The notes under the pieces are model-generated. The model was not told the DNA's origin, did not search any database, and was given only the letters and a program-made list of their open reading frames with translations. From the NCBI GenBank assembly GCA_028681135.1, contig JAQUJC010000005.1, positions 13,561 to 59,526 on the forward strand: DNA of 45,966 nucleotides, read 5' to 3'. Source of the DNA: Kiritimatiellia bacterium (GTDB lineage Bacteria > Verrucomicrobiota > Kiritimatiellia > CAIQIC01 > Lenti-01). The position numbers were made by a program, and so were the translations under genes. Shown one piece after another: positions 23,819-41,516 of this stretch (within the stretch, counting starts at the first letter, position 1; every line of letters starts with the position of its first letter).

Positions 23819-24988
23819 CTATTTGGCTTCGTAGCGGCGTTTGTGGTCCTTGATGCCCGCGAGGCGGAAGGCCCCCCCGCGGTAGGGGGCAAAGACGTGG
23901 TCGGCGCCGTCGGACGGGACGCCATAGTTGAAGATATCTTCGTACTGGCGGTAGGTGACGGGGGTGCGCGAGTCGAGCATGGTGCGGTGAGTGTCGGTGA
24001 AGAGGTGGTCGCGGTATCCCGCCTGCACGACGCCGGAAAAGAATTCGGCCATGCAGCCGGAGCCATAGGAGAAGAGCCCGATCCGTTTGCGCGCAAGATT
24101 CGCGGGGGCGTGGTCGAGGAGGGAGGCGAGGGCTTCGTAGACGCAGGCGGCATAGGTATTGCCGGTCTGCCGGTTGTAGTGAAGGGCGGGGTCGATGAGG
24201 CGCTCGAGTTCGTCGCGGGGGGGCAGGGGGATGCCGTCGGCTTTGCACAGGCGCTCGAACGATTTGTAGGCGATTTTGGTGAAGGGCAGATGGAAGCAGA
24301 GGTGGGCGTGGTCGGTGAGGGATCGGCCTGAGGCGGCGTGATAGTTTTTCCAAGCTCGGAGGAGGGTGGTCAGGTACATGCGGGTGGAATATTTGCCGTC
24401 GACGATGGCTTCTTCGCGGTAGTTGGGGCGCCAGAAGTCCATGATGTCTTCGGCGTGGAAACCGGATTCGGGGTCGAGCGCCAGAACGCGGGGGCGGGTG
24501 GAGACGAGCATGGCGATGGCGCCGGCGCCCTGGGTGGGTTCGCCGGGGCTGGCGAGGTCGTAGCGGGCGATGTCGGCGGCAAGGACGAGGGCCTTGGTGT
24601 GAGGCCGGGCGGCGACCATTGCCGCGGCCATGCGCAGAGCGGCCGTAGCCCCGTAGCAGGCTTCCTTGACTTCGATGCAGCGGCAGGCGGCAGGCAGGCC
24701 GAGGAGCTTGTGGCAGAACAGGGCGGCGGCCTTGGATTGGTCGATGCCGGATTCGGTGGCCAAAATCACCAGTTCGATGTCGTCGCGTCCGGCCTTGTCA
24801 ACGATGGGCAGCGCGGCGTTGGCGGCCAGGGTGACAATGTCCTGATCGGGAGGGACGATCGCCATGCGTTCCTGGCCAATGCCGATGACAAACTTGTCGG
24901 GGTCGACGCCGCGCATTTCCGCAAGAATGCGCAGATCGAGGACATAGGAGGGTGCGTGGAACGAGATGAGATCAATGCCGATGTTCAT
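23819..24988 (-). CDS. mvaS: Hydroxymethylglutaryl-CoA synthase
   Basis: A 389-residue thiolase-fold enzyme condensing acetyl-CoA and acetoacetyl-CoA into HMG-CoA, the first committed step of the mevalonate route to isoprenoids. The catalytic triad is complete: E79 in ATESGID, C111 in EVKEACYGATAAL and H233 in CFHLPFTK. GQERMAI near the N-terminus and LFSYGSGCMAEFFSG near the C-terminus are typical of bacterial MvaS. ATG 24988 is the only sensible start. Upstream is the iteron array at 25080-25192, a possible control element for this gene. Other mevalonate genes are not in the window, but dxr is missing from its usual place between cdsA and rseP. Confidence 0.92.
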   Translation of the reverse strand: MNIGIDLISFHAPSYVLDLRILAEMRGVDPDKFVIGIGQERMAIVPPDQDIVTLAANAALPIVDKAGRDDIELVILATESGIDQSKAAALFCHKLLGLPAACRCIEVKEACYGATAALRMAAAMVAARPHTKALVLAADIARYDLASPGEPTQGAGAIAMLVSTRPRVLALDPESGFHAEDIMDFWRPNYREEAIVDGKYSTRMYLTTLLRAWKNYHAASGRSLTDHAHLCFHLPFTKIAYKSFERLCKADGIPLPPRDELERLIDPALHYNRQTGNTYAACVYEALASLLDHAPANLARKRIGLFSYGSGCMAEFFSGVVQAGYRDHLFTDTHRTMLDSRTPVTYRQYEDIFNYGVPSDGADHVFAPYRGGAFRLAGIKDHKRRYEAK

Positions 24989-25079
24989 GGTTTAAGCGGG
25001 CCGGGGTTGAGGATGTTGCACAGACCTTAGGGGCGAGGGTTTGGATTGTGGGATTGTCGTGTCCAATGGCGAGGAAAGG

Positions 25080-25192
25080 TTTTCCACGCTATGGAAAACT
25101 TTTTAGCGTTTTTTCCACGCTATGGAAGACTTTTTAACATTTTTTCCACGCTATGGAAAACTTTTTAGCGTTTTTTCCACGCTATGGAAAAG
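25080..25192. repeat. Four 31-bp tandem iterons with TTTTCCA-CGCTA-TGGAAAA dyad
   Basis: The core CCACGCTATGG recurs at 25084, 25115, 25146 and 25177, exactly 31 bases apart each time. Each copy is an inverted repeat (TTTCCA/TGGAAA, five-base centre), and copies are joined by ACTTTTTAGCG-like spacers with only a few substitutions. Three helical turns per unit place every dyad on the same face of DNA, as for cooperative protein binding. It lies 92 bases upstream of mvaS and 87 bases downstream of the CLC gene, both read leftward, so it could be an operator array for mvaS. A series of weak hairpin-plus-T terminators for the CLC gene is the alternative. Confidence 0.9.
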
Positions 25193-25278
25193 GGGCAAGG
25201 CCGCACGACGAACCGGGGCGGTTGGTCTATCGATGTCTACACCAACAGGCCACATGAGGGGGGGGCGATTTTTGGGGC

Positions 25279-27366
25279 CTAGTGGGATTCGGCGGTTTCG
25301 GTGGGGGGGCCGAGCAGGATCAGGGTGTCGGCGGCCTGGATGATGGTGCGGGCATCGGGGAGAAAGGTGTGCAGGGTGCCGTCCGGCGCGATGCGTTTGA
25401 TGAGCAGCACGCGGGCGCCGCGGGTGTCGGGGAGGCGGGCGTCGGCGAGGGATTTGCCGTGGAGGTCGGCGGGTGGCTCCCATTCGGAGAGTTCATAGCC
25501 GGGGGCGATTTCGAGCGGTTGGGCGGAGAGGGAGGCGAGCCCGCGGGAAAGGGCCTGGGGCGCGTCGGCCTTGAAAATTTCATCCTGGTAGGCATTGAGG
25601 ACATCGGGGTAGGCGAGGGTGCCGAGGAGACGGCGGTCGGAGAGCGAGTGCAGGACGGGCAGTTCGGGCAGATGGGTGGAGGCGAATTTGGCGAGGGCGT
25701 CGGAGAGAGAACTGCCAGGCAGGACATAGGGCGTATGGCGGCGCATCACGTCTTCGGCCATGAGCACGCCGAGCAGGGCCGGCGGGGAGAGCAGGATGCG
25801 CCGCGCATCGGCCAGAGTGATGGTGCCGAGAAGGGCGCCTTCGTCATCGACGACATAGAACTGGGCGTGGGGCGAGGAGAGAATGCGGTCGACGAGGTCG
25901 CGGGCAGATTCGGATGGGCGCGTGGTTTCAAAATGGGGTTGTAAGTGATCGGCGACGCGGTGGGCTTGCAGCAGGTCGGGGGAGCGACCGCGGAAGAGGC
26001 GGATGCCGTCGCGGGCGAGCTTGAAGGTGTAGATGGACAGGTGGCCGCTGAGCCGGGAAGAGAGGACGGTGCTGAGGATGACCACGGTCATGACAGGCAG
26101 AATGATGGCGTAGTTGGAGGTGATCTCGATGACCATGAGGATGGCGGTGATGGGGGCGAGCATGGTGCCGGCGATGACGCCGCCCATGCCGACCAGGGAG
26201 TAGGCGGCGACGCCGCCAAAGCGGGCCCCGAGTAGGGGCTCGGCGAGGGTGCCGACGAAGGCACCGAGAAGAGCGCCCAAGGCGAGCGCGGGTGAAAAGA
26301 CGCCCCCGGACCCGCCGGAGCCGAGTGTGAAGCCGGTGGCGAGTAGTTTGGCAACGGCCAGCGTCAACAGTAGAAGGGCGGGCAGATGGTCGGAAAAGGC
26401 CTGGTTGCAGAGGTGCAGTCCGCCGCCCATGACTTGGGGGAAAAAGAGGGCGAGCGCACCGAGCATCAGGCCCCCGAGGGCGGGGCGCGACCAGTTCGGG
26501 AGTCGGCCGGGGCGGTCAAACAGAATTTCGGCACGGGAAATGAGGTGGATGTAGACCCAGGAGGCGAGGCCGCAGAGCGCCCCCAGCAGCAGGTAGGGAA
26601 TGAGTTCCCACGGGCTGGCGAAGGTGCAGGGGGGGGGAGAGAAAACAGCGGCGTTGCCATGCCAGGAGCGGGCGACGACCGTGGCCAGTACCGAAGAAAT
26701 AACAATGGGGCTGAACTGGGCCGCGCCAAATTCGCCGAGGATGACTTCGACCGAGAATAGGGCGCCGGCGACCGGGGCGTTGAAGGTGCCCGCGATGCCG
26801 GCGGCGGCGCCGCAGGCGACGAGCGTGCGCAGGCGGCGGGTGGACATGCCCATGGCCTGGCCGATTCGGGAGCCGATGGCCGCGCCGATCTGAATAACAG
26901 GGCCTTCCCGCCCGGCGGACCCGCCGGAGCCGATGGTGATGGCCGAAGCAAAAATCTTGGCCAGGGCGACGCGTCCGCGGATTCGAGCGCCGGCGAGGGC
27001 GACGGCCTTGATGACCTGGGGGACGCCGTGGCCCTTGGCTTCGGAGGCAAAAAAGGTGGTGATGAGTCCGACGATGAGGCCCCCGGCGGCCGGGATGAGC
27101 AGGAGTTTCCAGGGGGAGGTGGTGCGCAGGAGTTCGACGGTGGGTTCGATCAGGCCCCAGGAAATGTTCTGCACGAGATGAATGCCCGCACCAAAGATTA
27201 TCGAGCCGACGCCGCCCAAGATACCGATGATGGCGGCGGTGAACAGCAGAAAGAGATATTCCCCTCCGCGGGCTTGCTCCATCCAGGAGCGCCCGAGGCG
27301 CCGGGCCCAGCGTCCAAGACTCCGCAGGCGGGTGGTGCGCGGTTGTTGTGGGGCAGATCGGGACAT
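25279..27366 (-). CDS. CLC chloride channel/antiporter with CBS pair and RCK-C-type tail
   Basis: A 695-residue membrane transporter. The CLC core (~35-440) shows all three selectivity segments: KGHGVPQVI, GSGGSAGREGPVIQIGAAIGS with the gating glutamate E154, and GSGGSGGVFSPALALGA. A CBS-domain pair follows (~460-590), where nucleotides may regulate transport. The last ~100 residues (ALSRGLASLSAQPLEI to DTLILLGPPTE) look like a TrkA-C/RCK-C module. E154 is compatible with Cl-/H+ exchange. The ORF is open 143 codons further upstream; ATG 27366 or ATG 27378 is right because the conserved N-terminus begins there. It is divergent from the GT4 gene at 27499. A C9 run in the mRNA (26629-26637) lies within the core. 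Confidence 0.88.
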   Translation of the reverse strand: MSRSAPQQPRTTRLRSLGRWARRLGRSWMEQARGGEYLFLLFTAAIIGILGGVGSIIFGAGIHLVQNISWGLIEPTVELLRTTSPWKLLLIPAAGGLIVGLITTFFASEAKGHGVPQVIKAVALAGARIRGRVALAKIFASAITIGSGGSAGREGPVIQIGAAIGSRIGQAMGMSTRRLRTLVACGAAAGIAGTFNAPVAGALFSVEVILGEFGAAQFSPIVISSVLATVVARSWHGNAAVFSPPPCTFASPWELIPYLLLGALCGLASWVYIHLISRAEILFDRPGRLPNWSRPALGGLMLGALALFFPQVMGGGLHLCNQAFSDHLPALLLLTLAVAKLLATGFTLGSGGSGGVFSPALALGALLGAFVGTLAEPLLGARFGGVAAYSLVGMGGVIAGTMLAPITAILMVIEITSNYAIILPVMTVVILSTVLSSRLSGHLSIYTFKLARDGIRLFRGRSPDLLQAHRVADHLQPHFETTRPSESARDLVDRILSSPHAQFYVVDDEGALLGTITLADARRILLSPPALLGVLMAEDVMRRHTPYVLPGSSLSDALAKFASTHLPELPVLHSLSDRRLLGTLAYPDVLNAYQDEIFKADAPQALSRGLASLSAQPLEIAPGYELSEWEPPADLHGKSLADARLPDTRGARVLLIKRIAPDGTLHTFLPDARTIIQAADTLILLGPPTETAESH

Positions 27367-27498
27367 GACCGTGAGCATAGAATGAGAGCGGCGGGGGTTC
27401 AATTTCAAATTCCGTGATGGGGGGTGCTCGCCCTGAAACAACCGCGTGGAGTAGAATGGGCTGGATTTGAGCAGCGGGCGGCGGCTAGACTGCGCGCC

Positions 27499-28656
27499 AT
27501 GAGTTCGAACCATAACCAGCGGATTGCGATTGATGCGCGGTGGGTGTTTCGCGAGGTGAGCGGTATTGGGCGCTATACACTGGAACTGCTGCGCCAGTTG
27601 GGGGAGATGGGCGGGCCGTTTACCTATCTGGTGCTGGTGCAGGATGGCGAGCGGCAGGCGTTTATCGAGCGCGAGGCGGGGCTGGCGGGACTGGCCCATT
27701 TTGAATTTGCCCACCTGCCCTACGGGCCGTTTTCGCTGCGGGGTCAGGTGGCGGCTGCGCGGCTCTTGCAGACGCACGGGGTGGGGGTCTACCACTCAAC
27801 CAATTTCATGGTGCCGCTGCCGGCCTTTCCGCGGCGCCGGCCCCATGCGATCCGCTGCGTCTGCAACATTCACGATTTGATTCCGCTGGTGCATCCGGAG
27901 TTTACCCCGAAGGCGCTGAAGACGCGTTTTGCCTTCGTATACCGGGCATTAATGCATGAGATTGCGCGGCGGGTGGATACGGTGGTGACGGGCAGTGAAT
28001 CGGCAAAACGGGACATTGTGCAGCGGTTGAAGATCGCGGAAGAGCGGATCGTGGTGGCGCCGGACGGGGTGGAAGCGCGGTATCGGCCGGGCGGCGCAAA
28101 GCCGTCGGCGCAGGGGGCGCCAAAGACAGTGCTGTATGTGGGGCGGAGCGATCCCTATAAGAATCTGCCGGGGCTGGTGGCGGCTTTTGCGCAGGTGGTG
28201 GGCGACGGAGGGGTCGAGGCGCGGCTGCGGATTGTCGGCTCGCCGGATGCGCGGTATCCGGAGGCGGGCACGGTGGCACAGCGGCTGGGCGTGGCGGACC
28301 GGATCGACTGGGCGGGATATCTGGACGAGGCCGCCTTGCGGCGGGCGTACCAAGAAGCGGATGTGCTGGCGCTGTTGTCGCGCTATGAGGGATTTGGGTT
28401 GCCGGTGCTGGAGGCGATGGCGTGCGGCACCCCGGTGGTGTGCTCGAATGCGGCGAGCCTGCCGGAGGTGGTGGGCAGTGCGGCGTGGTTGGTGGCACCG
28501 GATGATACGGCCGCAGCGGCGGCAGCCCTCAAGACGGTGTTGACGGACCCGGCGACGGCCACGCGGCTGCGCGAGGCGGGGCTGGCACAGGCGGCGCGTT
28601 TTTCCTGGAAGGCGGCGGCGGAGGCGGTCTTGCGGATTTATGGGGAGGGCGCATGA
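27499..28656 (+). CDS. GT4 glycosyltransferase
   Basis: A 385-residue retaining glycosyltransferase with GT-B fold, probably building a surface polysaccharide. The N-terminal domain has RIAIDARWVFREVSGIGRYTLEL, typical of GT4 mannosyl/rhamnosyl-type enzymes. The C-terminal domain has VLYVGRSDPYKNLPGLV and the donor-binding E-x7-E stretch, RYEGFGLPVLEAMACGTPVV, then ASLPEVVG. No membrane helices. ATG 27499 is used because homology begins there; the frame is open to 27424. The next gene starts inside its stop codon region (ATGA at 28653). First gene of a three-gene operon. Confidence 0.88.
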   Translation: MSSNHNQRIAIDARWVFREVSGIGRYTLELLRQLGEMGGPFTYLVLVQDGERQAFIEREAGLAGLAHFEFAHLPYGPFSLRGQVAAARLLQTHGVGVYHSTNFMVPLPAFPRRRPHAIRCVCNIHDLIPLVHPEFTPKALKTRFAFVYRALMHEIARRVDTVVTGSESAKRDIVQRLKIAEERIVVAPDGVEARYRPGGAKPSAQGAPKTVLYVGRSDPYKNLPGLVAAFAQVVGDGGVEARLRIVGSPDARYPEAGTVAQRLGVADRIDWAGYLDEAALRRAYQEADVLALLSRYEGFGLPVLEAMACGTPVVCSNAASLPEVVGSAAWLVAPDDTAAAAAALKTVLTDPATATRLREAGLAQAARFSWKAAAEAVLRIYGEGA

Positions 28657-36788: not shown

Positions 36789-36949
36789 AGCTGGACACTG
36801 GAAACTTGGCCGCGCCGCTGCCGAAGACGGCGGGCGGGGCTGTTGGTCGTTGTTCGTTGGTTGTTGGTCGGGAATATCCCGATCGGTCGGATCAGACGGA
36901 TCAGCCGGATTCGGCTGTCTCCGGTCTCCCCCTTGAACATTGGATATTG

Positions 36950-39873: not shown

Positions 39874-40007
39874 CAGGAGTCAGTAGTCAGTTTCCAGAAT
39901 AAATCCCAGCCCCCTTTAACCCACGCCCTATCCTGAACCCCGAACCCCGAACCCTGAACCCTATCCCCCCCCTAATTTCAAAACCTCATTCTGAATACTG
40001 ACTCCTG
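39874..40007. repeat. Inverted-repeat-bounded 134-bp element with GAACCCT-type repeats
   Basis: Perfect 12-base arms CAGGAGTCAGTA and TACTGACTCCTG bound the segment, extending as imperfect arms toward CAGAAT/ATTCTG. Inside are tandem CCTGAACCCCGAACCCCGAACC-like units and a C8 run (39965-39972). It resembles a small non-autonomous element sitting between cdsA and rseP. Confidence 0.6.
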
Positions 40008-41459: not shown

Positions 41460-41515
41460 GGGCAAAAAGGCAAAAAGGCAAAAAGGCAAAAGGGCCAAAG
41501 GGCCAAAAAGCAAAA
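41460..41515. repeat. GGCAAAAA-type tandem microsatellite
   Basis: GGCAAAAA repeated about four times with a period of eight to nine bases, then GGCCAAA variants, filling most of the 71-base gap between convergent rseP and mnmA. No hairpin terminator is visible there. Confidence 0.8.
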
Positions 41516-41516
41516 A

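Follow-up and report, generated by a model that had tools for sequence, protein, structure and literature searches.

A genome-wide family of helically phased dyad arrays in a Kiritimatiellia bacterium and its relatives

The four dyads found in front of mvaS in the window, the whole stretch of 45,966 nucleotides analysed here, belong to a real genome-wide family of dyad arrays, of which the mvaS copy is one member among many. The dispersal of these arrays, the conservation of their arms, the quantised spacing, the freedom of the linkers and the retention at some orthologous places were observed directly. Like the many others, the array probably serves for the cooperative binding of a putative dimeric, sequence-specific DNA-binding protein acting genome-wide.

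The array in front of mvaS

The array and the two genes that enclose it are organized as follows.

25080..25098, no strand: dyad 1, TTTTCCA-CGCTA-TGGAAAA, exact match
25111..25129, no strand: dyad 2, single arm mismatch (TGGAAGA)
25142..25160, no strand: dyad 3, exact
25173..25191, no strand: dyad 4, exact
25080..25191: complete array; Tandem Repeats Finder gives it a score of 203, with period 31, 3.6 copies, no indels and 92% matches
23819..24988, minus strand: mvaS, HMG-CoA synthase (gene model; TIGR01835, PF08540, PF01154)
25279..27378, minus strand: CLC-type chloride channel/transporter gene with CBS and TrkA_C domains (gene model; PF00654, PF00571, PF02080)

The preliminary description had reported four dyads at identical 31-base spacing, and these are real: start-to-start distances are 31, 31 and 31 bp, one arm mismatch being confined to copy 2, and spacings of 31 and 31 were also recovered by a separate repeat search of the array. 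The start at 25080 was correctly placed, and the end lies one base earlier than described, at 25191 instead of 25192. The location of all sites on one helical face is a fair reading, 31 bp corresponding to about 2.95 helical turns. Measured from the edges of the array, the start codon of mvaS is 91 bp away, and the stop of the CLC-type gene, which lies upstream and runs in the same direction, 87 bp. The identity of mvaS is confirmed by a TIGR01835 score of 481.9 bits (cut-off 360.35). The Pfam scan of the CLC-type gene was run on the longer open frame 25279-27795. At three mismatches or fewer, the window contains 7 matches to TTTTCCAN5TGGAAAA, against 1.28 expected, and none of 100 shuffles reaches 7; in this search the array copies carry 0-1 mismatch each. 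No Rfam covariance model matched the interval 24900-25400 up to E=1.

Tandem repeats of other kinds reside in the same window. An 8-bp unit, GGCAAAAA, occurs in seven tandem copies at 41461-41516, and the heptanucleotides CCTGAAC and GTTGGTC are repeated 4.4 times at 39932-39962 and 4.1 times at 36842-36870, respectively.

Distribution among genomes and genes

The unit is a dispersed repeat lying beside unrelated genes. The 3.05-Mb source genome holds 201 exact copies of TTTTCCAN5TGGAAAA, and 319 places at two mismatches or fewer, compared to 0 and 10, respectively, for a reversed-pattern control. Exact matches were found in 37 of the 56 genomes searched, source genome included (reversed control, 2/56). 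Each of the 28 genomes searched from the source's own genus, family and order has at least one exact dyad, as have 9 of the 28 from the rest of the class, and exact counts among matching genomes span 1 to 718. The distribution is patchy, since genomes of the genus g11 and genome G012 contain 7-19 relaxed matches (7 each in G023 and G027 of g11), compared to about 100-1363 in congeners or family members. A scan of contig records for two dyads 11-13 bp apart identified at least 104 stretches. Among the 80 matches listed, 77 are titled Kiritimatiellae, Kiritimatiellales, Lentisphaerae, Verrucomicrobia(-ota), Opitutia or Spartobacteria, and 3 'uncultured bacterium'; viral contigs contributed a single matching stretch. 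No description of this repeat was found in literature searches covering a collection of open-access papers.

In the source and related genomes dyads neighbour pheS, trpB/trpA, gspJ/gspK, ddl, an oppB-like permease gene, and others. The preliminary description had envisaged a protein controlling the entry to isoprenoid synthesis, and specificity of this kind is hardly tenable in the light of such neighbours. An operator dedicated to mvaS, setting the synthesis of isoprenoid precursors, would fit the finding that 8 of 30 mvaS loci, retrieved from among 47 genomes with an mvaS match, have an array within 450 bp upstream of the gene; these loci come from two families. The remaining 22 loci lack the array, and the genome-wide occurrence of the unit makes this explanation very remote.

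The surroundings of mvaS vary among genomes. In G007, G013 and G016, all of g6, the array is found between clc and the gene preceding mvaS, which in G007 encodes an amidohydrolase. The 3' side of clc carries an array of 2-5 units in all five clc-bearing genomes examined (G000, G002, G007, G013, G016). In G023 and G027 mvaS lies, without array, 7 nt from the preceding gene, the end of which resembles the dnaN of G020. The dnaN-mvaS junction thus hosts an array in four g8 genomes (L206, L208, L210, L211) and measures 7 nt in two g11 genomes (L212, L216). The array is therefore dispensable at this place in g11, and was either inserted in g8 or lost in g11.

Arrays occur in all types of intergenic gap. 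Among gaps of at least 80 bp, they were found in 60 of 319 co-directional, 15 of 113 divergent and 6 of 59 convergent ones, with no significant pairwise difference; the count covers stretches of the source, G020, other g8 and g6 genomes, a non-random set including many contigs picked from site lists or around mvaS, and excludes 17 arrays located within called genes as well as 9 that were unassigned. Gene starts derive from a home-made hexamer caller; distances measured to them are therefore approximate, and some of the arrays scored inside genes may reflect mis-called starts. Between the called genes of the first ten G020 stretches there are 44 arrays, for 81 called gaps of at least 50 bp. Some arrays sit within operons, and one is found at about codons 128-152 of an oppB-like coding sequence in three lineages (G000, G020 and one named record), with intact arms, different pitch, partly different reading frames and different residues. 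Arrays inside operons or a coding sequence, and in every type of gap, are not predicted by a plain operator model. The arrays in oppB-like ABC permease genes fall in an insert between Pfam domains (L140:9550-9621, L224:4265-4315, L086).

The same data bear on the possibility that the arrays work as RNA hairpins, either intrinsic terminators or elements stabilizing or processing mRNA between cistrons. The predicted folds of array RNA are more stable than those of shuffled sequences (z -3.97 and -5.59), and G020 arrays are often found within about 10 nt of stop codons. Yet, the polarity is opposite to that of a terminator, as the 3' arm ends with AAAA and not with U, and a terminator scan returned 1 site against 0.8 expected. 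The presence of arrays in divergent gaps and inside a coding sequence, and a pitch in helical turns that has no RNA rationale, further argue against this reading, which we judge improbable; transcripts ending within the array, contemplated in the preliminary description, are accordingly not favoured.

Some places are shared by orthologous genes. G000, G020 and two named records have an array between gspJ-like and gspK-like genes. G000 has another between trpB and trpA, as does one named record. Upstream of pheS, the arrays of G007, G018 and three named records stop 5-20 bp short of the called start. The named records used in these comparisons had been chosen because they carry an array. Where neighbours are syntenic, agreement on an upstream array is seen in 4 gene families, compared to 1.0 under label permutation (P=0.005). 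Where the upstream neighbours changed, 7 families agree against 5.15 by permutation (P=0.21). On the downstream side both counts are 2, the corresponding permutation values being 0.83 (P=0.175) and 2.43 (P=0.74). Counted by pairs, arrays are strongly linked to gene starts where synteny is broken (19/38 versus 11/103, P=2e-6), but this linkage is largely due to pheS, is not significant when counted by family, and is not claimed here. No functional theme was seen among the recurrent array-adjacent families, as judged from an annotated part of the neighbours (15 proteins). None of 11 tRNAs in the source-genome sample lies within 600 bp of an array, and core orientation in the source-genome arrays shows no clear preference relative to gene direction. 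The notion that a half-site may serve as -35 element was dropped, because the small excess of -10-like hexamers seen in G020, 14-15 bp beyond the array (8/64 at the two offsets), is absent from source or g6 arrays.

Arms, cores, linkers and spacing

The arms of the unit are constant, while the 5-bp core and the linkers vary between dyads. Cores are lineage-specific, being CGCTA and CACTG in the source genome, AGCCT and AACCT in G020, ATCAT and ACCAT in G006. All 72 adjacent pairs of the source genome (within 120 bp) are spaced 22, 30 or 31 bp (25, 5 and 42 pairs, respectively), all 28 pairs of G020 30-32 bp, and 301 of 307 pairs from 104 named-record loci of the contig scan 21-23 or 29-33 bp. 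Dyad spacing is thus quantised at 22 and 30-32 bp, that is, at two or three helical turns.

Linkers separating units at 31-bp pitch are distinct in 155 of 157 cases in the named-record set, and their identity between arrays is 0.31, against 0.25 expected from composition. Similarity is slightly higher among the 31-bp linkers of the source genome (0.36 versus 0.27), and clearly higher among the 30-bp linkers in the named set (0.50 versus 0.26). In 802 kb of the source genome sites with 0, 1, 2 and 3 mismatches number 73, 24, 14 and 39, compared to 0, 0, 3 and 18 for the reversed control, which leaves little of a decaying tail of dyad sites. Arms also outlast linkers: in the orthologous dnaN/mvaS array of the g8 species G017, G020, G021 and G025 invariant columns are 27 of 28 in the arms, 5 of 10 in the cores and 1 of 13 in the linker, a comparison resting on one array, as only four g8 gaps were syntenic. 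The dnaN gene of this junction was identified by Pfam on G020.

Signs of copying are present as well. Some arrays contain duplicated multi-unit segments, and opposed CGCTA cores are missing among the listed 31-bp pairs of the source genome, which together suggest that arrays also grow by local duplication. Flanks are shared by some arrays, with 13 matching flank pairs among 70 source-genome flanks and 12 among 128 G020 flanks (4 pairs in the control, run on up to 70 random windows). On the grounds of shared flanks or duplicated units, some copying of arrays has occurred.

Copying could be the whole story if the dyads were dispersed palindromes of REP/BIME type, mobile or passively copied, accumulating between genes without an essential protein-binding role. 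Hundreds of mostly intergenic copies in every gap type, the patchy loss in g11 genomes and G012, the tight g11 junction before mvaS, resembling an empty site, and the flanks common to some array copies above the random-window control all conform to this hypothesis. Unrelated linkers next to intact arms, the fixed pitch, and arms outlasting linkers in the orthologous g8 array do not. Nor is an association with RAYT genes seen: Y1_Tnp, the RAYT-type domain, was searched in 56 genomes and does not track the arrays, which were found at 2 of 30 Y1_Tnp loci. G005 lacks Y1_Tnp despite 116 relaxed sites, and G044 has 21 Y1_Tnp but one relaxed site. The GTAG tag is absent, source-genome units beginning with TTTTCC and ending with GGAAAA when the listing is read by eye. 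We thus regard a REP-like origin devoid of binding function as unlikely. As a separate observation, G055, of the same class, has 63 Y1_Tnp transposase matches, far above other genomes. The elements described in parts of PMC3733652 are likewise short palindromes, present in many copies, mostly extragenic and set in tandem groups; the arrays differ from them in lacking the GTAG tag and a RAYT association, in their fixed helical pitch and unrelated linkers, and in keeping some orthologous positions.

A putative DNA-binding protein and its possible relatives

Fixed pitch, free linkers, constant arms and occurrence independent of the strand are best accommodated by cooperative binding of a protein. 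One dimer would occupy each dyad, on TTTTCCA/TGGAAAA, and adjacent dimers would be in side-by-side contact, since a spacing of two (22 bp) or three (30-32 bp) turns brings the dyads to the same face. The protein, its binding, its cooperativity and any effect on nearby genes are parts of the model we infer from these regularities. The acting protein might be a global transcription regulator, or a sequence-specific nucleoid protein. The cooperative DNA-binding protein of the preliminary description is thus retained, as suggested by pitch, constant arms and free linkers, while its isoprenoid-specific role is not; its second suggestion, a chromosomal handling site, may hold.

Replication and partition iterons are tandem protein-binding repeats at helical pitch, a layout that the arrays reproduce. 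The arrays differ in being dispersed genome-wide, and not located at one origin or centromere. The half-sites TGGNA bound by AbrB are spaced 5 bp. As described in parts of PMC11135676, the bipartite AbrB sites resemble the dyads in having paired TGGNA half-sites, and many sites per genome. An AbrB/MazE binder was rejected, as PF04014 has no match in G005, G007, G008, G010, G011, G020 and others, among which six genomes with at least 70 exact sites. A ParB/Noc binder was rejected as well, because most genomes, with or without arrays, have 1-2 matches to PF02195.

The closest parallel is plausibly found in the multi-site operators of Lrp/AsnC proteins such as Ss-LrpB and BarR, where, according to parts of PMC2995911 and PMC10201364, dimers bind imperfect dyads, several in a row on one face, and two or three helical turns apart. 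Spacings of 22 and 30-32 bp correspond to such distances. The sites differ in length, 13-17 bp in those operators and 19 bp here, and the arrays are many per genome, and lie also inside operons and a coding sequence. All 28 genomes of the order, and 54 of the 56 overall, have an Lrp/AsnC orthologue. Array-poor and array-free genomes are included, the latter at similar identity, so that this single orthologue does not tell genomes with arrays from those without. In G007 an exact dyad starts 157 bp upstream of lrp (L246:12199-12675), preceded at 22 bp by a dyad with 3 mismatches. The lrp gene of G020 has only a 3-mismatch match, and an exact upstream dyad is thus present in one of the two lrp genes examined.

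A broader scenario may be tentatively put forward, in which a chromatin-like system spans the lineage, one sequence-specific protein occupying phased dyads at many fixed places, genes and operons included, with its preferred core and pitch drifting in concert at all sites during lineage divergence, and the system being lost altogether in some genera. The source genome combines 31/22-bp pitch with CGCTA/CACTG cores, G020 a 32-bp pitch with AGCCT. If true, this would show hundreds of sites shifting core and spacing together.

For annotation purposes, arrays residing beside genes such as mvaS should not be taken as gene-specific operators. If the arrays are bound by protein, a little-studied group of bacteria has a genome-wide DNA-binding system the sites of which can be read by eye and counted, and the natural losses, in genus g11 and genome G012, make the putative binder findable by comparing gene content.
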